A stretch of 64,000 bases of DNA from Segetibacter sp. 3557_3 (GTDB taxonomy: Bacteria > Bacteroidota > Bacteroidia > Chitinophagales > Chitinophagaceae). The position numbers were made by a program, and so were the translations under genes. The stretch covers positions 124,001-188,000 of the forward strand of contig NZ_SMSK01000013.1 of NCBI RefSeq assembly GCF_004354985.1. Reading direction: 5' to 3'. Within the stretch, counting starts at the first letter, position 1, and each line of letters starts with the position of its first letter. The notes under the pieces are model-generated. The model was given only the letters and a program-made list of their open reading frames with translations. It was not told the origin of the DNA and did not search any database. Shown piece after piece: positions 2,851-34,264 of this stretch.

Positions 2851-4227
2851 ATGGAGCAGCATTTTGTAAAAAAGTCATTGGTATTTGCGCTAACAATTAT
2901 CCTGATTATTAAGTTTTCTTTCCCGCTCTATACATTATTGGGGTTAGTAGCCCTGTTTGTATTTTTTCAACAACTCGGCTTTCTTATTCTTCAACTGGGC
3001 GACTGTATTCCTTACCGCAGTTTATTTGGGGTGATGATGTGTTTGCAAATGTTGGTTGGTCCCTCGCTGGTGTACAACGGCCTTGAGGATGATACCTCTA
3101 TTTACCGGATGAAGATACCGCAGGAGGAATACTTCTTTTATGTATTGCCATCCATCATACTTTTTTTACTTGGCTTGTACCTGAGGGGCAACAAACGTGG
3201 CGAACTGTTCGACGCCGAAGCGATTACGGAACTGGTCAACAGGAATAAAAAGATGCCATTTGCCTTGATTGCCGTTGGTTTTGCGGCCTCGTTTGCAGGC
3301 GGCAGTGTGGCAGGAGGACTGGGGTTTATTTTTTACCTGATACAGATGTTTAAGTTTATCGGCTTATTCCTGCTGTTTTTTGGCGATTATAAGTTTAAGA
3401 TAGCGTGGTTGTCGGTGATCTTTGGTTTATCCGTAGCGTCGTCGTTTGCGCAGGCCCTGTTTCACGACTTGCTGACCTGGATTATTCTTGCCGGCACCTT
3501 TATCTGTATGCGTTATAAATTCACCTTCCCGGTAAAGATTGGCGCATTCCTGGTATTTGCTGCGCTGGCCATATTTCTGCAGACCATCAAAACCAGTTAT
3601 CGCCAGATTGTATGGGAAGAAGGTGCAGCGGGCGATCTTGGAGCAATTACCGAGGCGAGCCGTAAAACCCAGGAAAGTACAGGTGGGATATTTACTGCGG
3701 AAAGTATTTCTGCCCAGGTTGTACGAATTAACCAGGGATGGATCGTTGCATCGGTAATGGATAATGTTCCGAACAATGAACCTTATGCAAACGGGCAGTC
3801 GCTGTACAAATATTTTGAGGCCGCCCTGTTACCCCGGTTTTTGGCGCCCAATAAACTGGAAGCCGGCGACCAGGAGATTTTTACCAAGTATTCCGGGATA
3901 CGAATAAGTGAGGGAACGTCGATGGCACTGAGTTCTGTTGGCGATGGTTATGCCAACTTCGGCATATTTGGTGGGTGGATCTTCATGTTTTTTTACGGCC
4001 TTATGTTTAACTATGTTATCAAGCTGGTGGGTAAGTATTCAAGGATTTTTCCGGCACTCGTTATGTTTGCCGCAATCATATTTGTTTATCCCATCAGACC
4101 GGACTGTGAGCTGCAAACGATTTTAGGTCATTTGGTAAAAGCTTCGTTCCTCATCTTTTTACTTCACAGGACTTTTCCCAACTACTTTAAACTTGAACAA
4201 AAAGCCCAAACTCTTAATTTTAGTTGA
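2851..4227 (+). CDS. Wzy-like polysaccharide polymerase (integral membrane protein)
   Basis: The 458-residue protein is mostly hydrophobic, with roughly ten or more predicted membrane spans and a long soluble stretch around residues 245-330 that contains charged and aromatic residues. This layout is typical of Wzy O-antigen/EPS polymerases, which join repeat units in the periplasm. Sequence conservation in that family is poor, so the call rests on topology and context between glycosyltransferases. It overlaps the next gene by 35 bp. A second Wzy/WaaL-like protein lies at 20.8 kb, and the sequence does not show which is polymerase and which might be ligase. Confidence 0.65.
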   Translation: MEQHFVKKSLVFALTIILIIKFSFPLYTLLGLVALFVFFQQLGFLILQLGDCIPYRSLFGVMMCLQMLVGPSLVYNGLEDDTSIYRMKIPQEEYFFYVLPSIILFLLGLYLRGNKRGELFDAEAITELVNRNKKMPFALIAVGFAASFAGGSVAGGLGFIFYLIQMFKFIGLFLLFFGDYKFKIAWLSVIFGLSVASSFAQALFHDLLTWIILAGTFICMRYKFTFPVKIGAFLVFAALAIFLQTIKTSYRQIVWEEGAAGDLGAITEASRKTQESTGGIFTAESISAQVVRINQGWIVASVMDNVPNNEPYANGQSLYKYFEAALLPRFLAPNKLEAGDQEIFTKYSGIRISEGTSMALSSVGDGYANFGIFGGWIFMFFYGLMFNYVIKLVGKYSRIFPALVMFAAIIFVYPIRPDCELQTILGHLVKASFLIFLLHRTFPNYFKLEQKAQTLNFS

Positions 4228-5338
4228 TTGGTTTGCGCCGGGTTACAAGGCCGGCGGACCTATCCAATCATCCGTTAACCTTGCTATTGCTTTAAAAAAT
4301 GATTTCGAGGTTTTTGTACTTACTGCCGATACCGATCATGGGGAAACCCTGCCGTACCCCGGTATAGTGCCGAACAAATGGACAAACGACTTCGATTCGC
4401 AGATCAGCGTTTATTACGCCCGTAAAGCGACCTTGTCTGCAGGCCAGATAAAGCGGGAGATGCTGGCGGTAAATGCCGACTTTGTTTACCTCAATCACAT
4501 GTGGAGCCCGATGTTCGTGGTTTATCCATTATGGCTGAAGTATGTCGGCGTAATTAAGGGTAAGGTAATTGTTTGTCCCCGTGGTGCGCTTTACGACAGT
4601 GCATTATCGGTGAAGCTGTACAAGAAGAAACCATTTTTATTGGTTTTTAAGCTGTTGCAAATCAGTAAAAAAGTAACTTTCCACGCGACAAATGATCGTG
4701 AGAAAACGGCAATTTTAAAATACTTTCCTGGTGCCAGGGTTTTAACAGCGGACAACCTGCCAAAGACCCTTCAAAAAGAATGGGTTCCAATATCAAAGGA
4801 AAGTGGATCGGTGAAGTGTATATTCATCGCCCGGATTGTACCGATCAAAAACATTTATTATTTACTGGATGCACTTTCCAGGGTAAAGTGCAAGGTTGAA
4901 TTGAGCATTGTCGGACCAATCGAGGACCAGAACTACTGGAACTCCTGCCTTCAGCTTATCAGTCAGTTACCTGCAAACATCCAGGTAAAATATAAAGGCA
5001 GTATCGAAAACGCTTTGCTCGCCGATATCGTAAATACACATCATATTTTCGCCTTACCCACAACAGGCGAAAACTTTGGCCATTCAATATTCGAAGCACT
5101 ACTAGTGGGGCGCCCTGTGTTAATTAGTGATCAGACGCCCTGGTTGAACCTTCCGGACGACAAAGCCGGGTGGGACTTACCCCTAAATGCTCCTGAAAAA
5201 TTCACAGCTGTGATAGAAGAGGTTTGTGCCTGGGACCAGGCAGCATTCGATGAATGGTCCCATTCGGCATGGAACTATGCGCGAAAGTTTATATCAAAGC
5301 CTTCATTAAAAACAGATTACTTAGAACTCTTTTCATGA
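4193..5338 (+). CDS. Glycosyltransferase family 4
   Basis: The protein has 381 residues with a GT-B layout. The N-terminal domain has a glycine-rich loop (APGYKAGGPIQSS near residues 14-26). The C-terminal domain has FIARIVPIKN, a typical GT4 donor-domain strand, and an ENFGHSIFEAL segment that fits the GT4 E-x7-E motif binding the nucleotide sugar. It starts at a TTG inside the end of the polymerase gene and ends in an ATGA overlap with the acetyltransferase, so the three genes are probably co-translated. The sugar specificity is not readable. Confidence 0.85.
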   Translation: MNKKPKLLILVDWFAPGYKAGGPIQSSVNLAIALKNDFEVFVLTADTDHGETLPYPGIVPNKWTNDFDSQISVYYARKATLSAGQIKREMLAVNADFVYLNHMWSPMFVVYPLWLKYVGVIKGKVIVCPRGALYDSALSVKLYKKKPFLLVFKLLQISKKVTFHATNDREKTAILKYFPGARVLTADNLPKTLQKEWVPISKESGSVKCIFIARIVPIKNIYYLLDALSRVKCKVELSIVGPIEDQNYWNSCLQLISQLPANIQVKYKGSIENALLADIVNTHHIFALPTTGENFGHSIFEALLVGRPVLISDQTPWLNLPDDKAGWDLPLNAPEKFTAVIEEVCAWDQAAFDEWSHSAWNYARKFISKPSLKTDYLELFS

Positions 5339-5892
5339 ATCACTTGAAAAAGGTTAACAACGCCCTTTATACGGTTAGTATAGAGATCGGAGCGTCGCGC
5401 CTTAAACAGATGGCCTGGTACATTATTAATGTCGTTTTTTTCAAAAGCAACCTTTTTATATTTTCTTCCTTCAAGGTAACGTTGCTCAGGTTCTTTGGTG
5501 CACGTGTTGGTGCCGGTACGGTTATCAAACCGGCGGTAAACATCAAGTACCCCTGGAAACTCGAGATCGGCGAACATTGCTGGATTGGTGAAAAGGTATG
5601 GATCGACAACTTATCTGAAATAACAATTGGTAATAGCGTAACGATTTCGCAAGGTGCTTTATTGCTTACGGGCAGCCATGATCATTCAAAAGAAACCTTC
5701 GACTATATCTCTAACCGTATTGTTTTGGAAGATGGGGTTTGGATAGGTGCAAAAGCAACGGTTTCGGGTGGGGTTACGTGTAAGTCGCAGAGTATACTGG
5801 GTATAGGTTCGGTTGCGGAACACAATCTCGACTCGTACATCATTTATAAAGGCAACCCAGCGATCCCCGTAATTACGCGAATGATTTACTAG
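5335..5892 (+). CDS. WcaF-like left-handed beta-helix O-acetyltransferase
   Basis: The protein has 185 residues. Its second half contains hexapeptide repeats (IGEHCWIGEKVWIDN, ITIGNSV, VWIGAKATVSGGVT) with the SHDHS segment typical of the WcaF/colanic-acid acetyltransferase group. These enzymes use acetyl-CoA to O-acetylate a sugar. The ATG at 5335 overlaps the upstream stop by 4 bp and is preferred to the in-frame start at 5254. It is the last gene before the 2-oxoacid dehydrogenase-like module, so it is also a candidate user of an unusual acyl donor, but that is speculation. Confidence 0.85.
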   Translation: MNHLKKVNNALYTVSIEIGASRLKQMAWYIINVVFFKSNLFIFSSFKVTLLRFFGARVGAGTVIKPAVNIKYPWKLEIGEHCWIGEKVWIDNLSEITIGNSVTISQGALLLTGSHDHSKETFDYISNRIVLEDGVWIGAKATVSGGVTCKSQSILGIGSVAEHNLDSYIIYKGNPAIPVITRMIY

Positions 5893-6200: not shown

Positions 6201-8150
6201 ATGAAGACGGTCCCTTTAAAGATCAATCACAAGCATATCAAAGACGCGCTCCGGATACGAATAGTAGAGGAGAAGTTTTTGCAACTATTTTCTGAAGGTA
6301 AGCTCAACGGAACCGTTCATACCTGTGTCGGGCAGGAGTTTTCGGCGCTCGCTTTTGCAGGGCAGTTGAAAAAGAGGGATTTTGTTTTTTCAAATCATCG
6401 TTGCCACGGCCATTATATTGCTTTCACGGCCGACGTCAGGGGTTTGCTTGCCGAACTCATGGGCAAAGCATCGGGCACCTCCGGCGGTATAGGCAGTAGC
6501 CAGCACCTGTGTCACAACAACTTTTTTTCTAATGGCATCCAGGGAGGTATTGTTCCCGTGGCTGCCGGTTATGCATTGGGCAATAAGCTTAAAGAAAACG
6601 GAGCCATTGGGGTAGTATATATAGGAGACGGCACACTAGGTGAAGGTGCTCTCTACGAAACGATGAACATCATCTCCAAGTGGAACATCCCGCTTTTAAT
6701 CGTTTGTGAAAACAACTTTTACGCACAGTCTACGCCCCAGTCAGTAAACCTTGCCGGCGACATTCAGGCCCGTGCCGAAGCCTTTGGCATTCGAAGCTGG
6801 AAAGGTAATACCTGGTCGCCCGATCAGTTGATGGATGAGGCACAGGAAGCAATCAACTATGTGCGTTCCGGATCGAAGCCCGGGTTTTTTCTTGTTGAAA
6901 CTTACCGTTTAAATGCGCACTCCAAGGGAGATGACGACCGCACCCGCGAAGAAGTAGAAGAACATAGCGAGCGTGACTTTATTAACCAGTTTAGTAAAGA
7001 CGGGAGTTCCTATTTTAAAATGTACCACGATGGTATTTCGGCGGAAGTTGATGCATTGGTAGCTGATATACTGTTGGAGTCCGAACAACCCATAGCGGAT
7101 TATTACCAGCCCGCAACCGGCAACACTGATCAAACCTGGTTACCCCTGAGTTCGGTTAACAAGCGACAGGTTGAACTAATAAACACCTTTTTTCGTGAGC
7201 GCATTGCTACCGACGACAAGCTGATATTCATTGGTGAAGACATCCTGTCTCCCTATGGGGGAGCGTTTAAGGTTGCCAAAGACCTTTCATTTATCAAGCC
7301 CGGCCAGGTATTTTCGACTCCAATATCGGAAGCAGCAATCATGGGCATCTCTAACGGGCTTGCGTTGAACGGCTTCAAGCCGTTTGCCGAGATTATGTTT
7401 GGTGATTTTATGACGCTTGCATTTGACCAGATCGTCAACCATGCGTCAAAGTTTCACCACATGTTCAATAAAAAGGTAAACTGTCCGGTTGTGGTGCGCA
7501 CGGCAATGGGCGGGCACCGGGGTTACGGGCCAACCCATTCGCAAACGCTCGACAAATTTCTTATAGGTATCGACAATGTAAAAACCGTTGCGATAAACAC
7601 GTTGTTTGACCCCACCGTTATTTACGAATCCATATACAAGGAGCAGCATCCCGTAATCCTGATCGAAAATAAAGTTGACTACGGCAAGAAAATCCTTGCA
7701 AACCCCTCCAAACATTTTGTTTACGAACGAAGCACGGAACAGTACCCTGTTGTACGTATACGACCCGCTGTTTCTGAGCCAGCTCTAACCATCGTTGCCT
7801 ACGGTGGTATGGCAGATATGCTTGCCCCTATGCTGGAGCAAATCTTTCTTGAAACTGATCAAAAACCAGAACTTATTGTACCCTCACTCATTTCGGATCT
7901 GCCAATTGATTTTGTTGTAGCATCTGTTCAAAAAACCAGGCGTTTGGTAATGATAGAAGAAGGAAGCGGCTATGGCGGAATCGGAAGCGAACTTATTGCA
8001 GCAGTTTCAGAAAGGATAGGTGATGGAGGTTTTAAAACTAAGCGCATATCGGCGATGCCGGTGCCAATACCATCGGTGAAGAGCCTGGAGCAAATAGTGT
8101 TACCGGAAAAAAACAGGATAATAAAAGAACTAAAAGAAAGTTTTCTCTAA
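6201..8150 (+). CDS. Fused alpha/beta 2-oxoacid dehydrogenase E1 (ThDP enzyme)
   Basis: The 649-residue protein fuses both E1 chains. The alpha part (about 1-300) has HCHGHY and the ThDP motif GDGTLGEG (from about 142) ending in ENN near 170-172. The beta part (about 319-649) has the catalytic IGED glutamate near 345, FMTLAFDQIVNHASK and the RTAMGGHRGYGPTHSQ stretch. E1 decarboxylates a 2-oxo acid and transfers the acyl group to lipoyl-E2. The gene overlaps the E2-like gene by one base. It lies between an acetyltransferase and a glycosyltransferase, with no E3 nearby, which argues for a glycan-related rather than central metabolic role. The ATG at 6201 fits the homology better than the TTG at 6168. 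Confidence 0.85.
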   Translation: MKTVPLKINHKHIKDALRIRIVEEKFLQLFSEGKLNGTVHTCVGQEFSALAFAGQLKKRDFVFSNHRCHGHYIAFTADVRGLLAELMGKASGTSGGIGSSQHLCHNNFFSNGIQGGIVPVAAGYALGNKLKENGAIGVVYIGDGTLGEGALYETMNIISKWNIPLLIVCENNFYAQSTPQSVNLAGDIQARAEAFGIRSWKGNTWSPDQLMDEAQEAINYVRSGSKPGFFLVETYRLNAHSKGDDDRTREEVEEHSERDFINQFSKDGSSYFKMYHDGISAEVDALVADILLESEQPIADYYQPATGNTDQTWLPLSSVNKRQVELINTFFRERIATDDKLIFIGEDILSPYGGAFKVAKDLSFIKPGQVFSTPISEAAIMGISNGLALNGFKPFAEIMFGDFMTLAFDQIVNHASKFHHMFNKKVNCPVVVRTAMGGHRGYGPTHSQTLDKFLIGIDNVKTVAINTLFDPTVIYESIYKEQHPVILIENKVDYGKKILANPSKHFVYERSTEQYPVVRIRPAVSEPALTIVAYGGMADMLAPMLEQIFLETDQKPELIVPSLISDLPIDFVVASVQKTRRLVMIEEGSGYGGIGSELIAAVSERIGDGGFKTKRISAMPVPIPSVKSLEQIVLPEKNRIIKELKESFL

Positions 8151-9454
8151 TGGCTTTACTGCAACAAATAAAAGTGCCGCTGTTGTCGGTTAACGATACC
8201 ACCTTAACGGTGGTTGAGGTGCTTTTTAAAACCGGCGAAGCTGTTTCGAAAGGAAGCCTGGTGCTGGTTTTTGAAACGTCCAAAACCACTTATGAAGTTA
8301 TTGCTGAAGCCGATGGCTATATCGACTACCAATGTAAAGCTGGTGAAGACTACGAAGTGAACAGGGTTGTGGCAAATATCTACAGCGACCTTGCCGAAAT
8401 CGAAGTTGCAGTAAAATCGAAACTCAACGGAACTAAGGTTCATGTTGACCAGGCAAGCTACCAAACGGTTAGCTGGAATGGTGACACCATGTTTTCGAAC
8501 AAGGCGCTCGACCTTATAAAGCAGCATGGTTTTGACAAAGGAGTGTTTGCCGACTACGACTTTGTGAGTTCAACAGATGTTGAAACGAAGTTTGGCCTGG
8601 CTTCACCGGTTACCGCTATGCCCGTGCAACCACCGGCAACTAAAAAGATGGCCGGCCAGGGCTCCGTACCTGCAAATGTGACAATGCAGAAATTGTCTTC
8701 CACCAAAAAACGGGAGATCGAATTTCTTTCCGCGGTTCAATCTTCCGGCTTAACCAGTACGCTGCACATCACCGTTGAAACCGCGGGTATCTTTTCGAAT
8801 ATCAATAACTCCCTTAAGTACCTGAAGAATTCTCTCCTTCCAATAATACTGTACGAAAGTGCCCGGTTGCTAAAGAAGCATCCACTGTTAAATGCTTTTC
8901 TAAACAATGACCAGATAGGCCTGTACGACAGGGTTAACACGGGTTTTGCGATTGATGCAGGCAAGGGCCTGAAGGTGTTGAAAGTTGAGGATACGAACCA
9001 AAAAACGATCAACCGGATAGAGGAGGAGATCATGCAGCTGTCTGAGCGCTACCTGCAGGATCAGCTCGCGATTGAAGATCTGAGCGATATCACCTTTACG
9101 GTAACAGACTTGTCATCAGAAGGCGTTACAGCCTTTCAGCCCCTGGTGAACATGAATAACAGTGCGATCCTCGGCGTTTCTGCTGTCGACGAAAAGCTGG
9201 GCAGGTGCAACCTTAGTATAACGTTTGACCATCGTGTAACAGAAGGCAAGCTGGGAGCGATCTTCCTGCGTGAGTTAAAAGAGCGGCTGGAGTCTTACGG
9301 GTTAGAAAATGGTGCCATTGACACTTCCGGGATTGCTTGTTTCAGGTGCTATAAAACACTTGCTGAAGACCTTAGCGGAATTGGATTTGCAAAATGTGTT
9401 ACCAGCGCCGGCAAAGAGGCATATGTCTGTCAAAGTTGTCTTAAAGGATTTTAG
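8150..9454 (+). CDS. Lipoyl-E2-like acyltransferase with C-terminal zinc-ribbon-like tail
   Basis: The protein has 434 residues. Domains in order are: a lipoyl domain (1-80) with the attachment lysine in FETSKTTYEV (Lys45), a degenerate subunit-binding segment near 115-150, and an E2 catalytic domain (about 180-385) ending in FDHRVTEG. The active-site His361 is kept, but the usual DHRxxDG Asp is Glu365. The last 40 residues hold CFRC (397/400), C416 and CQSC (427/430), a pattern that fits a zinc ribbon and is not part of normal E2 proteins. Expected chemistry is acyl transfer from lipoamide to an acceptor thiol, here perhaps the carrier protein encoded 2 bp downstream. The acceptor is an inference. 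Confidence 0.8.
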   Translation: MALLQQIKVPLLSVNDTTLTVVEVLFKTGEAVSKGSLVLVFETSKTTYEVIAEADGYIDYQCKAGEDYEVNRVVANIYSDLAEIEVAVKSKLNGTKVHVDQASYQTVSWNGDTMFSNKALDLIKQHGFDKGVFADYDFVSSTDVETKFGLASPVTAMPVQPPATKKMAGQGSVPANVTMQKLSSTKKREIEFLSAVQSSGLTSTLHITVETAGIFSNINNSLKYLKNSLLPIILYESARLLKKHPLLNAFLNNDQIGLYDRVNTGFAIDAGKGLKVLKVEDTNQKTINRIEEEIMQLSERYLQDQLAIEDLSDITFTVTDLSSEGVTAFQPLVNMNNSAILGVSAVDEKLGRCNLSITFDHRVTEGKLGAIFLRELKERLESYGLENGAIDTSGIACFRCYKTLAEDLSGIGFAKCVTSAGKEAYVCQSCLKGF

Positions 9455-9456
9455 CT

Positions 9457-10200
9457 ATGGAGGAGAAACTTAAAGAACTGGTATCAACTTATATTAATGT
9501 TCCGGGAGAACAGATAACTGCAGATACCGCCATCGATCGTTTGCGGGTTTCCAGCTCTATAGTTCTGCATCGGATGTATGCAAAGCTTGCCGAAAACGGG
9601 TTTAAAGTAGATAATTACTGGAACATCAAAACATTTGGGGGGCTGGTAAAGCTCAATAATGGCCAGGTTGTGAATGGTACTGCTACAAGCCAATCCTTGG
9701 GCGTTGAAACGGTTGATCAAGGTGTTTCATCAGGCATCGACATTGAAGAAATTGACTCTATGCCGGTTGTAGACGATTTCAGGGAAAGCCCGTTTTACAC
9801 CATGAATTTTGCGCCCTCCGAAATCTCCTATTGCATTCTGCAAAGCAATCCTTATGCATCGTTTGCAGGCTTATTCGCATTAAAGGAAGCAATTGTAAAA
9901 TGTGACAACAGGTTTAAGAACCGTGAACTCAACACGATTGTTATTGAACACTCACCCCTGGGCAAACCGGTTTTCAAAGATTTTCAGGTTTCGGTTTCTC
10001 ACACCGGTACTTTTGCAGCAGCAATTGCCTTAAATATAAAGAACGATACTAAGCAGGCCGTACCGGAAAGGATAATAACACCCGCTGTTATACCAGCCCC
10101 TGTTAAGCCTGCTACAAGCTGTGTTGCGTGGCTTGCGCTGCTCATCTCACTTGGCACATTGGTCGCTATTCTTTTATATATTAAGCCTTTTAATTACTAG
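9457..10200 (+). CDS. Membrane-anchored fusion of acyl-carrier-like and holo-ACP-synthase-like domains
   Basis: Residues 1-66 resemble an acyl carrier protein: a helix, INVPGEQITADTAIDRL, then RVSSSIVLH where carriers have DSL; Ser33 is the likely phosphopantetheine site although the Asp before it is Ser. Residues 90-205 resemble AcpS: GIDIEEI with the metal-binding Asp95, ALKEAIVK with Glu144, and VSVSHTGTFAAAIAL. Residues about 222-241 form one hydrophobic span, with a short tail. AcpS transfers 4'-phosphopantetheine from CoA to a carrier serine, so the protein may modify its own carrier. It follows the E2-like gene by 2 bp. A membrane-tethered acyl carrier for glycan modification is my inference. 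Confidence 0.7.
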   Translation: MEEKLKELVSTYINVPGEQITADTAIDRLRVSSSIVLHRMYAKLAENGFKVDNYWNIKTFGGLVKLNNGQVVNGTATSQSLGVETVDQGVSSGIDIEEIDSMPVVDDFRESPFYTMNFAPSEISYCILQSNPYASFAGLFALKEAIVKCDNRFKNRELNTIVIEHSPLGKPVFKDFQVSVSHTGTFAAAIALNIKNDTKQAVPERIITPAVIPAPVKPATSCVAWLALLISLGTLVAILLYIKPFNY

Positions 10201-10219: not shown

Positions 10220-10969
10220 ATGAAGATATCCATCATTACCGCAACGTACAACAGCCAGGCAACTATTGGCGACACCATCCGATCGGTAAATAGCCAGACT
10301 TATAAAAACATCGAGCACATTATTATTGATGGTGCATCTACCGACAATACGTTGAACATTGTTAAGGAACTACACCAGGGACCTGTAGTTTCTGAACGCG
10401 ACAAGGGTATTTACGATGCCATGAATAAAGGTATTGCCATCGCTACCGGCGACGTTATCGGCATAATCAATTCCGACGACTTCCTGGCCAACGATGAGGT
10501 GATAGAAAATGTGGTTAAAACCTTCCAGTCGGAAATATGCGATGTTGTATATGGGGACCTGGTATATGTTGATCCCGTAGATACGGACAAGGTGCTCAGG
10601 AGATGGATCGCCGGAAAGTATGTACCAAGCCAGTTTTTGCAAGGGTGGATGCCTCCTCACCCAACGGTATTTGTGAAAAAGAAGCTCTATTCAAAATATG
10701 GCCACTTCAACCTCGAACTGAAAAGTTCAGCAGATTATGAATTGTTGTTAAGGTTGCTTTTTGTAAATAAGGCTAAAGTGAAGTACCTGCCAGGTGTGCT
10801 TGTACGCATGCGATCAGGAGGGCAGAGCAACCGTTCCTTCCAAAACAGGTTGACGGCGCACAAAGAAGACTACCTCGCCTGGAAAATCAACGGTCTTTCA
10901 CCAAAATGGTATACGCTAATGATGAAGCCGGTTAGAAAAATCAAACAATTCATCGTGATCGACCGCTAG
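10220..10969 (+). CDS. Glycosyltransferase family 2 (WcaE-like)
   Basis: The protein has 249 residues with a compact GT-A fold: MKISIITATYNS at the N-terminus, HIIIDGASTDNT, then SERDKGIYDAMNKGI and IINSDD as the DxD-type metal site. DKGIYDAMNKG is characteristic of the WcaE-like GT2 subgroup found in capsule clusters. The ATG at 10220 begins directly at the conserved strand. The longer frame to 10121 overlaps the ACP/AcpS gene and encodes unrelated sequence. It is probably the last gene of the preceding transcript, since a hairpin lies at 11072. Confidence 0.85.
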   Translation: MKISIITATYNSQATIGDTIRSVNSQTYKNIEHIIIDGASTDNTLNIVKELHQGPVVSERDKGIYDAMNKGIAIATGDVIGIINSDDFLANDEVIENVVKTFQSEICDVVYGDLVYVDPVDTDKVLRRWIAGKYVPSQFLQGWMPPHPTVFVKKKLYSKYGHFNLELKSSADYELLLRLLFVNKAKVKYLPGVLVRMRSGGQSNRSFQNRLTAHKEDYLAWKINGLSPKWYTLMMKPVRKIKQFIVIDR

Positions 10970-32315: not shown

Positions 32316-32672
32316 GTGCTGCAAATAGCATAGCTGCTTGCCGGTAAAATGTTTTCATCGGCGCAGACAGCCTGATGATTGCAGGCATGGGTGAGGGATT
32401 GAAGGGGAAAGCCCGCAGTACCCAACGTAGTTGGGGACGAGGACTTGTACCGTAAAGCCCGACCCCAACCCTTAGGGTGGGGGCACCCCCAATTAAACCT
32501 GCTTTCCACATGGCTGATAAGTTTTACCTGGCAGTATCGTACTTGTTTTGGCTTTATGGATGCTGGATTATGTTGTTAAATTATGATTATTGTTTGCAAG
32601 TGAACCATCTTGCTTGTTGAGCGTTAGTTGTTTGAGTAAACATTTTTAACCACCCTCCCTGTTTCTTTGCAT
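32316..32672. repeat. Gap with GC-rich hairpins related to the dispersed repeat, copy I
   Basis: No real gene is seen. The stretch 32400-32495 contains a perfect hairpin (cccaac 32421-32426, gttggg 32430-32435) and a second GC-rich one near 32463-32483 (ccccaaccc against gggtggggg, one mismatch). It also contains acttgtaccgtaaagccc at 32443-32460, whose halves are shared with copies A, B and G (acttgtac) and E (ccgtaaagccc). Two overlapping minus-strand open frames are by-products of this GC-rich block. Confidence 0.5.
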
Positions 32673-33551
32673 ATGAATGCGTTCACCATCAAAGATCTAG
32701 AAAACCTTTCCGGGATAAAGGCCCATACCATCAGAATATGGGAGCAGCGGTATTCCTTCCTGAAGCCGCAGCGTACGGAAACCAACATCCGTTACTACTC
32801 CAACGATGAGTTAAAGATGATCCTTAATGTGGCCCTGCTGAATAAGTATGGTTTCAAGGTTTCGCACATCAACAAAATGAACCTGTTGGAGATGGAAGAA
32901 AAAGTTTTCTCCCTATCTCCCGGACAGGCTCAACAGGAACGTGTTGTGAACCAACTTATACAGGCAATGGTTGATCTCGACATGGATGTGTTTGAACGTG
33001 TTCTGGAAGCCTATATCTCGAGTGTGGGGATAGAAAAAACCATCACCCAGATCATATTTAGTTTTCTTGAGCGTATCGGTATTCTTTGGCTAACCAATCA
33101 TATCAATCCTGCGCAGGAACATCTTGTAACGAACATCATTCGGCAAAAGCTGATTTCGGGTATTGAAAATGCACCGCCTACCATCGTCAGGGAGAAGTTG
33201 ATAGTACTTTTTTTACCTGAAAATGAGTACCACGAACTTGGCTTATTGTTTATTTATTACCTGCTGAAACGCAATGGCATAAAGGTGCTTTACCTTGGCG
33301 CAAACGTTCCGTTGAAGGACGTTGAGTATATTGTTAAGTTGAAAAAACCCGATGCGCTCTATTGCCATCTTACCTCTGTTGCAAGCAATTTTAACTTTGC
33401 AAGGTTCCTGCAACAAATGCAAACCCGCATGCCTGATGTTGCTCTAACCATCTCGGGCCCACTTACGCAGTCCTACAAAAAGAAGATACCTGAGAATATC
33501 CTGTTTAAACGATCGCTGTCGGAAGTGGTTGAATACATTGTAACACTTTGA
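32673..33551 (+). CDS. MerR-family regulator with cobalamin-binding domain (CarH/LitR type)
   Basis: The protein has 292 residues. Residues 1-70 form a MerR winged helix (FTIKDLENLSGIKAHTIRIWEQRY). A four-helix cap domain has W139-x9-E149-H150, the CarH signature that packs against adenosylcobalamin. The B12-binding domain has ENEYHELG with the cobalt-ligand His187, a variant of DxHxxG. CarH proteins are tetrameric repressors that fall apart when light breaks the Co-C bond. The next genes encode an ECF sigma factor and Idi. The ATG at 32673 matches the family start better than the TTG at 32667. Confidence 0.88.
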   Translation: MNAFTIKDLENLSGIKAHTIRIWEQRYSFLKPQRTETNIRYYSNDELKMILNVALLNKYGFKVSHINKMNLLEMEEKVFSLSPGQAQQERVVNQLIQAMVDLDMDVFERVLEAYISSVGIEKTITQIIFSFLERIGILWLTNHINPAQEHLVTNIIRQKLISGIENAPPTIVREKLIVLFLPENEYHELGLLFIYYLLKRNGIKVLYLGANVPLKDVEYIVKLKKPDALYCHLTSVASNFNFARFLQQMQTRMPDVALTISGPLTQSYKKKIPENILFKRSLSEVVEYIVTL

Positions 33552-33590
33552 TAATCCACCCTGTTGAAACTACCGTTAGGTAGACAAAAT

Positions 33591-33618
33591 CCGTTGCCCA
33601 TGGCAGCGGTTTTTTTTT
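33591..33618 (+). terminator. Rho-independent terminator after the MerR gene
   Basis: An 8-bp stem with one G-T pair (ccgttgcc 33591-33598, ggcagcgg 33602-33609) is followed by nine T residues. It separates the regulator from the sigma-factor gene. Confidence 0.75.
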
Positions 33619-33710
33619 GCATTAAATCATCCTAACGACATCTATTCCCGTATATACCTGTGTTCGTTTTTTCCGACATTCTGATACTAAAAATATTATA
33701 TGAAAACTGG

Positions 33711-33737
33711 TTTGTTACAAAAGTTTGTTTAACTTTG
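33711..33737 (+). promoter_or_regulatory. Promoter upstream of the ECF sigma gene
   Basis: TAACTTTG at 33730-33737 is a full match to the -7 consensus TAnnTTTG, and TTTG at 33711-33714 is a candidate -33 box with a somewhat short 15-bp spacer. Transcription would start near 33744, about 20 nt before the ATG at 33764. This supports that start over the one at 33725, which would lie inside the promoter. Confidence 0.55.
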
Positions 33738-33763
33738 AGTATAACATTCCTAAACAATATTCC

Positions 33764-34264
33764 ATGGGTAGCATAGAATTTAATCAACTGCTTTTATCTA
33801 ATGCTGAATTCCTGAAGCCTTTTGCGGTTACCTTAACACGCGACCAGGAGACTGCTAAAGACCTGTTTCAGGAGACTTTATACCGGGCATTGGCTAACAA
33901 GGACAAGTATAATGTGGGGACCAACATCAAGGCCTGGCTTTATACCATCATGCGCAATGTATTTATCAATAACTATCGTCGCAAGCTTAAGCAGAATACC
34001 GTACTAGACAGTACGCCCAATGAGTTTTTGCTTGACTACAATCAAACATCTGTAGCAAATTCGGCGGAGACAACGATGAATTTAAAAGAGATCAAAGAGG
34101 CTATACACAAATTGCCGGAGATCTTTCGTAAGCCTTTCCTAATGTACTTTGATGGTTACAAGTACAACGAAATTGCCAACATTGTTGATGAGCCGCTAGG
34201 TACGATTAAGAGCAGGATCCACTTTGCGCGTAAGCTCCTGAAAAGCCAGATCCAACGCTATTAG
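33764..34264 (+). CDS. ECF-type RNA polymerase sigma factor
   Basis: The protein has 166 residues. Region 2 contains ETAKDLFQETLYRALANKDK and IKAWLYTIMRNVFINNYRR, matching the core-binding and -10 recognition helices. Region 4 contains IHKLPEIFRKPFLMYFDGYKYNEIA and LGTIKSRIHFARKLLK for -35 recognition. No anti-sigma gene is adjacent. It lies between a CarH-like regulator and idi, an arrangement like LitR-LitS, so light or cobalamin control of this sigma is a fair inference. Confidence 0.9.
   Translation: MGSIEFNQLLLSNAEFLKPFAVTLTRDQETAKDLFQETLYRALANKDKYNVGTNIKAWLYTIMRNVFINNYRRKLKQNTVLDSTPNEFLLDYNQTSVANSAETTMNLKEIKEAIHKLPEIFRKPFLMYFDGYKYNEIANIVDEPLGTIKSRIHFARKLLKSQIQRY

Follow-up and report, generated by a model that had tools for sequence, protein, structure and literature searches.

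Several antibiotic gene clusters encode sets of proteins that place a two-carbon (C2) unit on an acyl carrier protein (ACP). In the report on scleric acid (PMC6335953), SclQ1 is given as an ACP, SclQ2 and SclQ3 as proteins with thiamine diphosphate (ThDP) and transketolase domains, SclQ4 as a protein with lipoyl and acyltransferase domains and SclP as a phosphopantetheinyl transferase (PPTase). The same report describes SclQ1-4 as homologous to QncN, QncL and QncM, reported to direct the synthesis and attachment of a C2-glycolicacyl unit, and proposes a ketose phosphate as the C2 source. DinS and DinU, homologues of NapB and NapD, are said in a second paper to derive a hydroxyethyl unit from a ketose phosphate and to load it onto the ACP DinT (PMC7570522, citing Peng et al. 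2012). On the glycan side, WcaF and WcaE are named in two further papers as parts of colanic acid repeat-unit synthesis (PMC9143390, PMC6801904). Here a locus is described in which the two meet. It lies in a 64,000-nucleotide stretch of Segetibacter sp. 3557_3 (contig NZ_SMSK01000013.1, positions 124,001 to 188,000; hereafter the window) and consists of three genes, for a ThDP-dependent E1, a lipoyl E2-like protein and a third protein (gene 3), together called the module, which stand inside an exopolysaccharide (EPS) operon just after a gene for a WcaF-type acyltransferase.

With a probability of roughly 55%, the four genes form a transferable acylation cassette in a fucose-type EPS operon, through which a glycolyl group would pass by way of an ACP to a sugar. 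The members of the proposed cassette are as follows.

5335 to 5892, plus strand: WcaF-type left-handed beta-helix acyltransferase, the proposed terminal acyltransferase (NCBIfam WcaF subfamily)
6201 to 8150, plus strand: E1, fused alpha-beta ThDP-dependent enzyme of the ACP-linked clade (Pfam, 45.8% to RenH, motifs, tree)
8150 to 9454, plus strand: E2-like gene, lipoyl and acyltransferase domains with a C-terminal four-Cys ribbon (Pfam, 13-member alignment, Foldseek)
9457 to 10200, plus strand: gene 3, putative ACP, PPTase and anchor (open reading frame, Pfam ACPS)

An earlier note on this DNA had described three open reading frames (ORFs) spaced by -1 and +2 bp that encode a fused E1, a lipoyl/E2-like protein and a carrier plus carrier-activating protein with a membrane anchor. 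The coordinates bear out the spacing, with one base common to E1 and the E2-like gene (-1) and gene 3 following at +2. Pfam likewise confirms the first two proteins: E1_dh (144 bits), Transket_pyr (81 bits) and Transketolase_C (47 bits) lie in one 660-residue ORF, the mechanical ORF opening at TTG 6168, earlier than the start at ATG 6201, and the E2-like protein has 2-oxoacid_dh (122 bits) and Biotin_lipoyl (30 bits). In gene 3 the PPTase (ACPS over its cut-off) and the C-terminal anchor stand, and the carrier domain has to be called putative, having model topology and an invariant Ser34 to show for it. The earlier note named no acyltransferase; the WcaF-type hexapeptide enzyme just upstream (mechanical ORF 5254-5892), which scores 206.7 bits against a subfamily cut-off of 192, is an identifiable candidate.

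The search of genomes for the three-gene neighbourhood that had been suggested as a check found it, whole or in part, on 14 further contigs. These are the relatives among 78 stretches matched in the scan of genome contigs; all are Bacteroidetes by record title, and most of the titles name Chitinophagaceae or genera of that family. E1 and the E2-like gene occur in the same order on all 14, with gene 3 visible on 12 and the other two ending inside the E2-like gene, so the three-gene set is not a chance arrangement. The module-positive loci, window included, number 15, and 13 have all three genes in view; L026, L034 and L035 end on short contigs, and L029, probably from the same genome as G018, a member of the same family as the window's genome, is counted once. 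Full-length gene 3 is found in 2 of the 99 genomes of the relatives sample, own included; any match to it is found in 11 of the 99, those apart from the full-length ones being AcpS-like only. At E <= 1e-60 the E2-like protein matched in the window's own genome and in no other of the 395 genomes of the class. WcaF lies upstream of E1 in 15/15 loci and is itself preceded by a GT4 gene in all of them, this GT4 being merely 26% alike in L029 and L030. Directly downstream of gene 3 there is a GT2 gene in 11 of the 12 loci showing that side, L033 being the exception, and GMD-GFS comes after GT2 in 10 of 11. Between WcaF and E1 stands an AT3 gene in seven loci, an AT3 fragment in one, a TylF-type methyltransferase gene in two and nothing in five, including the window. 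The fragment (L030:7860-8060, 66 residues) occupies the place where close relatives carry the full membrane acyltransferase, and the E1, E2 and ACP genes beside it are intact.

The genes on either side of the cassette in the window are as follows.

4193 to 5338, plus strand: GT4 glycosyltransferase directly upstream, outside the cassette (Pfam; module label changes in the GT4 tree)
10220 to 10969, plus strand: GT2 glycosyltransferase with WcaE similarity, outside the cassette (TIGR04009 at 72.8 bits, far under the cut-off of 369; start inferred from ATG)

The module thus sits between WcaF and GT2, and GMD-GFS lies about 14 kb further on from GT2. WcaF is the partner that moves with it. A search with the WcaF of L023 in a sample of 148 relatives gave 38 matches in 32 genomes with a homologue at E <= 1e-20; matches without a locus were excluded and 30 loci were kept, two of them module-positive (own and G018). 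The 28 module-negative loci comprise 20 with wider context (up to 20 kb, two of the contigs being <8 kb), used in all trees and fixed-difference counts, and eight (L069, L082-L088) seen with <=1.5 kb on each side, where no E1 match was found and which enter the residue count only. The same GT2 adjoins WcaF in 19 of the 20, and in none of the 20 does an E2-like or gene 3 match exceed 45 bits. The operon is thus widespread, and the triplet appears to have entered it between these two genes. Two of these loci (L092, L096) have a distant E1 nearby, at 31% and 23%. In the WcaF tree the module-positive sequences form one clade (support 96/99, 98% of bootstraps). The module label changes five times in the GT2 tree (three forced), three times in the GT4 tree (two forced), which omits L029 and L030 with their GT4 at 26%, five times for GMD (two forced) and four times for GFS (two forced). 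WcaF has ten columns that are fixed in the module-positive sequences and rare in the module-negative ones, two of these being gaps in the latter; GT4 has one such column, and GT2, GMD and GFS have none. Over matched loci and without gap columns, WcaF has 9, 4, 10 and 10 fixed columns against 0, 1, 0 and 0 for GT2, GT4, GMD and GFS, respectively.

Pairs of close relatives with and without the module point to its borders. The Niastella loci L024 and L036 resemble L093 in GT2 (81%), GMD (92-93%), GFS (86-88%) and five further downstream ORFs (81-99%), but the WcaF of L093 is merely 60% alike, the module is absent and the upstream genes are different. L033 and L034 resemble L104 in the upstream GT4 (81-82%), and L033 also in a Wza further downstream (94%), but L104 has a WcaF at 54-55%, no module and different genes between it and Wza. 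With the pairs combined, the loci appear to break upstream at the junction of GT4 with WcaF and downstream at that of gene 3 with GT2.

The WcaF of the window aligns with the galactoside acetyltransferase LacA (1kqa) at E 1.3e-9, and two of its codons are of particular concern.

5818 to 5820, plus strand: Glu189 codon, aligned with LacA T165
5872 to 5874, plus strand: Ile207 codon, on LacA R183 when counted on past the end of the printed alignment

Residue 189 is Glu or Asp in 15/15 module-linked WcaFs and acidic in 0/28 others, L064 having been removed from that count as the same gene as L091; residue 207 is Leu, Ile or Phe in 15/15 module-linked and Lys or Arg in 28/28 others. LacA T165 and R183 are contacts of acetyl-coenzyme A (acetyl-CoA), as are K166 and R180, at whose positions module-linked and other WcaFs differ less clearly. 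We infer that with this switch WcaF has probably lost its CoA site and come to use an acyl-carrier donor.

In the plasmid collection the E1 matches best to RenH, from the renieramycin symbiont, in an alignment that takes in 99% of the query; two fused E1s of its own genome match it at 24.6% and 26.1% (the latter over 383 residues) and an alpha subunit of that genome at 29.7% over 293 residues. The motifs HTC[VIL]GQE, SQH, G[IV]QG and RGYGPTHS are found in 25/25 members of its clade (15 EPS E1s, RenH, those of Streptomyces NBC_01136, S. cattleyicolor, Nonomuraea and Paenibacillus, and five from other Bacteroidota) and in 0/8 control E1s (Rhizobium, Shinella, Azospirillum, Pacificitalea, C. difficile, Priestia and the two own). 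In the E1 tree the 25 form one branch with support of 100/100 and all eight controls lie outside; the E1 of G839, from Bacteroidota, pairs with RenH at 100/99. In Streptomyces sp. NBC_01136 and in Paenibacillus polymyxa the genes next to the relative are annotated as ACP and E2. The E1 and E2 of S. cattleyicolor, with an ACP-like frame, come after a polyketide synthase (PKS)-like region, the ORFs being judged by eye, and in Nonomuraea no E2 match was found by BLAST within 13.6 kb around E1. The Nonomuraea E1 pair of this clade (L057:5977-7892) lies near small ArsR-like ORFs, again by eye. The earlier statement that no E3 (lipoamide dehydrogenase) is nearby agrees with a search of the genome, in which none of the 22 matches fell on the window's contig (C4) and the only one over the cut-off was C29:206070. 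As E1 does not group with controls of the pyruvate dehydrogenase (PDH), branched-chain 2-oxoacid dehydrogenase (BCKDH) or acetoin type and the operon is without E3, the three genes, judged by sequence, are not an ordinary 2-oxoacid dehydrogenase.

The E2-like protein has the following features.

8282 to 8284, plus strand: Lys45, predicted lipoylation site in ETSKTTY, a motif found in 15/15
9230 to 9232, plus strand: His361 of the E2 motif HR[VI][TS]EG, in 14/14 EPS E2s reaching the motif (L035 ends before it)
9338 to 9439, plus strand: Cys397/400...427/430 ribbon at the C-terminus, the four Cys invariant in 13/13

Its best plasmid match is RenI (32.7% over 86%), and the structures matched by Foldseek with its model, whose mean predicted local distance difference test (pLDDT) score is 69, are E2 folds. 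The four-Cys ribbon, kept in glycan-type E2s, was not seen in RenI; a similar C-terminal Cys ribbon occurs in two distant relatives (L121:7386-8633 and L122:7841-9292). At the Asp position of the HRxxDG motif there is Glu in all 14 EPS E2s reaching it, Thr in RenI, G585 and G839, Asn in Streptomyces, S. cattleyicolor and Paenibacillus, and Asp in eight of nine control E2s, the ninth (Pacificitalea) showing no DHR motif.

Gene 3 can be divided into three parts.

9457 to 9666, plus strand: putative ACP domain with the Ser34 codon at 9556-9558 (AlphaFold2 helices, invariant Ser34; profiles silent)
9730 to 10035, plus strand: AcpS-type phosphopantetheinyl transferase domain (Pfam ACPS, Foldseek)
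10114 to 10182, plus strand: C-terminal membrane helix (AlphaFold2 helix 220-242; hydrophobic in 13/13)

ACPS (PF01648) covers residues 93-173 at 33.7 bits against a cut-off of 25 and is matched in 13/13 close orthologues. The AlphaFold2 model (mean pLDDT 81) has helices at 2-13, 34-46 and 60-67, an AcpS-like part and helix 220-242, and the 50 Foldseek matches listed are the phosphopantetheinyl transferase domain of fungal fatty acid synthase and bacterial AcpS. Ser34, GID.E and KEA..K are invariant in the 13 orthologues. Ser34, at the start of helix 34-46, is also kept in two distant relatives; this and the topology of the model suggest that the first 70 residues are a putative ACP. The C-terminus is hydrophobic in all 13 (best 19-residue Kyte-Doolittle mean 2.5-3.0). 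A stand-alone AcpS-like protein, 50% to the PPTase domain of gene 3, is encoded in an EPS cluster of G014 (L007:1492-1815, L019:8139-8462), where it adjoins a hexapeptide-like transferase and a CapK-like protein (by eye) in a stretch with no E1 or E2; G014 was rejected as a relative of the module, no triplet lying within 20 kb.

Taken together, these comparisons suggest the following course of reaction. E1 would act on a ketose phosphate to give dihydroxyethyl-ThDP, the two-carbon unit being the most likely one, and the lipoyl arm would oxidise that unit and hold it as a glycolyl (hydroxyacetyl) thioester. From there the E2 core could pass the acyl group on to the ACP domain, whose phosphopantetheine arm the fused PPTase of gene 3 would have put in place and which the C-terminal helix would keep at the membrane. 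WcaF may take the acyl group from this ACP, rather than from CoA, to a sugar of the membrane-bound repeat unit, plausibly, if colanic acid is a guide, a fucose in the lipid-linked unit. The lipoyl arm would be re-oxidised in trans by a housekeeping E3 encoded elsewhere in the genome. A hydroxyacetyl group would also be the smallest change from the acetyl group normally carried by WcaF-type enzymes. The proposal of the earlier note that an acyl group passes from lipoate to a tethered ACP and on to a sugar without CoA thus gains comparative support that falls short of proof. The comparisons establish which genes are present, their recurrence, the clade of E1, the joint movement of WcaF with the module and its residue switch, and from these the donor, the nature of the acyl group, the loading of the ACP, its use by WcaF and the acceptor sugar are conjectured.

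A second arrangement of related genes occurs elsewhere in the phylum. In 395 Bacteroidota genomes six, own included, have an E1 at E <= 1e-100. In two of them, G585 and G839, the E1-E2-gene 3 triplet belongs to other glycan-type clusters, and both stretches also encode a hexapeptide acyltransferase, identified by Pfam in G585 and by BLAST in G839 (28% to NeuD). The G839 gene that immediately follows gene 3 encodes a 586-residue protein (L122:5285-7045) with weak lipoamide-dehydrogenase similarity (34.9 bits, cut-off 408.8), possibly a dedicated redox partner. In three others of the six, G691, G786 and G119, and also in G876, which is not one of the six, a lipoyl domain is fused to a NeuD-like acyltransferase directly after E1.

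L123:11567-12670, L124:11312-12466, L125:11668-12822 and L127:1501-2646: lipoyl-NeuD fusions, located in other Bacteroidota in gene clusters for nonulosonates or amino sugars

The same E1 family adjoins the fusion in all four genomes where it was found. The lipoyl motif is ETSKAD or ESSKAD in the three checked. In G691 the E1-fusion pair follows a cytidylyltransferase and precedes NeuB, and in G786 it lies between a DegT aminotransferase and a Gfo/Idh oxidoreductase. The fusion is rare and, with those genomes included, occurs in 2 of 98 relatives of G119 and 1 of 98 relatives of G691. Its NeuD match ends at 195 of 202 in all three scanned, and the GxPA end present in the window genome's own NeuD was found in none of them, which would fit a loss of CoA use. 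A wider view, which we rate only tentatively and at a little below even odds, is that of a Bacteroidota-wide CoA-free route in which a glycolyl-type unit from a ThDP E1 would go by lipoate to a hexapeptide-type sugar acyltransferase. It would have two architectures, an E2 with a membrane-bound ACP feeding WcaF and a lipoyl-NeuD fusion taking the group from lipoate to sugar without CoA or ACP, and cassettes swapped together with the acyltransferase would re-specify the acyl decoration of the polymer.

Several observations weigh against the cassette and its proposed chemistry. Since WcaF also occurs without the module (20/20 control loci), its clade could reflect linkage and not donor use, and each compared pair of loci is near-identical on one side only, no single pair showing both breaks. 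ACP profiles do not recognise the N-terminal domain of gene 3: PF00550 matched in 0/13 close orthologues and 0/2 distant relatives, hhalign against four ACPs of related operons gave a probability of 0.5, and a PDB profile search found an ACP (2ehs) only at E 0.72. Assignment by profile was accordingly given up and the domain kept on the strength of the model. The distant gene 3 relative in G839 shows no clear anchor. The change in the E2 motif, tried as a mark of ACP transfer, was rejected and does not separate ACP from CoA acceptors, because the title of 1dpc, whose E2 enzyme uses CoA, names Asn614 in the E2 catalytic mechanism. An 'HSK' lysine in E1, considered as a phosphate clamp, was likewise rejected, being present in 2/8 controls (C. 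difficile and Priestia). The E1 tree carries long-branch warnings, and kinship to the Qnc and Nap sets was judged by RenH and uncharacterised operons as stand-ins, not by QncN or NapB. The fusions have a lipoyl match over the Pfam cut-off in 1/3 scanned and NeuD_NnaD scores of 152, 121 and 122 bits, all three under the cut-off of 160.8. Deletion of sclQ1-4 left residual product and feeding of glycolic acid restored product, according to the scleric acid report (PMC6335953).

The best surviving alternative keeps the cassette and makes E1 a true 2-oxoacid decarboxylase, as the earlier note had it, acting on pyruvate, 2-oxobutyrate or a branched oxoacid, so that the ACP would carry an acetyl, propionyl or branched acyl group. 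The best profile matches are of the PDH type for E1 and of the PDH or 2-oxoglutarate dehydrogenase (OGDH) type for the E2-like protein, all far under the equivalog cut-offs, and the ThDP and active-site frame of E1 is intact. However, E1 lies outside all eight sampled controls and in a clade with RenH and ACP-linked operons, and decarboxylation is not the likeliest chemistry because the described E1/E2/ACP relatives are proposed to draw their C2 unit from a ketose phosphate. A dedicated path to acetyl or propionyl would also seem to gain little, since both groups are available from CoA. We regard this alternative as unlikely.

It is less probable still that the triplet makes acyl-ACP for another acceptor, an AT3 protein where present or a small molecule, and that WcaF is merely linked and still uses acetyl-CoA. 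An AT3 orthologue (48-78% to that of L023, itself among the seven) lies between WcaF and E1 in 7/15 loci, with the 66-residue fragment in an eighth, and in 0/20 module-negative loci; the window cluster holds a different AT3 (<30%) about 10 kb upstream of E1 (L020:11030-12100), and WcaF does occur without the module. Yet between WcaF and E1 the AT3 gene is absent or a fragment in 8/15, two of which carry the methyltransferase instead, and distant AT3s (27-31%) are also found in 3/20 module-negative loci; AT3 was rejected as the general acyltransferase for being intact beside E1 in just seven loci. WcaF stands alone among the five families compared in having fixed differences at more than one column, and two of these fall, by residue class, on aligned CoA-contact positions; the lipoyl-NeuD fusions point to hexapeptide acyltransferases. 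As a third possibility, acyl-CoA could remain the product of the E2-like protein, with gene 3 no more than a PPTase that has an irrelevant N-terminal domain. This would suit an E2 core that keeps its fold and catalytic His and an ACP domain that profiles do not detect, but is very improbable given that a helix opens with the invariant Ser34, which two distant relatives retain, and given the annotated ACPs of related operons, of which one of the two scanned is over the PF00550 cut-off.

Beyond the cassette, the wider loci were searched for assembly-line genes of the nonribosomal peptide synthetase (NRPS) or PKS kind. No stop-free frame exceeds 858 codons in the 14 loci (contigs of 8-22 kb), and no NRPS or PKS domain was found in the 20 proteins scanned with Pfam, the remaining ORFs lying outside that scan; beyond 40 kb in the window, also outside it, there is one frame of 1127 codons. 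The EPS operon is followed, at 32667-34264, by genes recognised by eye as encoding a MerR/B12-type regulator and an ECF-type sigma factor; in L023, too, Pfam places genes of both kinds after those for EPS.

In the general view, bacterial polysaccharides obtain their acyl groups from acyl-CoA or, in the case of lipid A, from acyl-ACP. If the cassette acts as proposed, a glycan-dedicated path of ThDP, lipoate and ACP would be a separate source of acyl decorations and would account for the way in which glycolyl and other groups absent from the CoA pool might be attached to sugars. The E1 motifs and the WcaF residue switch would then serve as a marker set for finding such polymers. Related bacteria with and without the cassette, their loci near-identical on one side, offer a natural comparison that makes the model testable; in the Niastella case the upstream genes differ too from those of G505, which is without the cassette.

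Among known systems, the scleric acid set (SclQ1-4 with SclP) has a ThDP E1, lipoyl-E2 and PPTase like those of the window, and an ACP to set beside its putative one, and sends a C2 unit to that ACP, and the quinocarcin set (QncN/QncL/QncM) is of the same kind without a named PPTase. Both differ from the window in feeding an NRPS, in an E1 split or fused differently and in an ACP that is a separate protein, and the gene-table passage lists no hexapeptide sugar acyltransferase, unlike the window. NapB/NapC/NapD of naphthyridinomycin and DinS/DinT/DinU of dnacin are described as taking hydroxyethyl from a ketose phosphate to an ACP, also in an NRPS context unlike that of the window. In the renieramycin Ren cluster, presumably of NRPS context too, RenH is the closest named E1 found and stands with RenI among neighbours annotated RenE-RenL. 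The window's set is thus, to judge by its domains and relatives, the same chemical kit as the Scl, Qnc and Nap sets, outside an NRPS. Pyruvate and branched-chain 2-oxoacid dehydrogenase complexes share with it fold, cofactors and the lipoyl swinging arm, whereas the window has an E1 of another clade, no E3 on the contig and an extra PPTase gene with a putative ACP. The WcaF of colanic acid is like that of the window in family and in the company of a WcaE-like GT2, GMD and GFS, but the window's enzyme has changed residues at two aligned CoA-contact positions and is linked to an acyl supply of its own. In D-alanylation of teichoic acid (DltC) and glycylation of lipid A (AlmF), a carrier protein donates the acyl group to an envelope glycan, the group being activated by adenylation and not by ThDP and lipoate. 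A literature search, with most subscription journals outside its scope, found no glycan locus with an E1/E2/ACP(/PPTase) set among titles and the openings of abstracts, in agreement with the earlier note, which knew of no EPS system with this gene set; the set itself has a precedent in SclQ1-4 with SclP. What appears to be new is the use of the set in glycan loci, the WcaF carried along with it and the lipoyl-NeuD fusion, while the chemistry is already known from antibiotic clusters.

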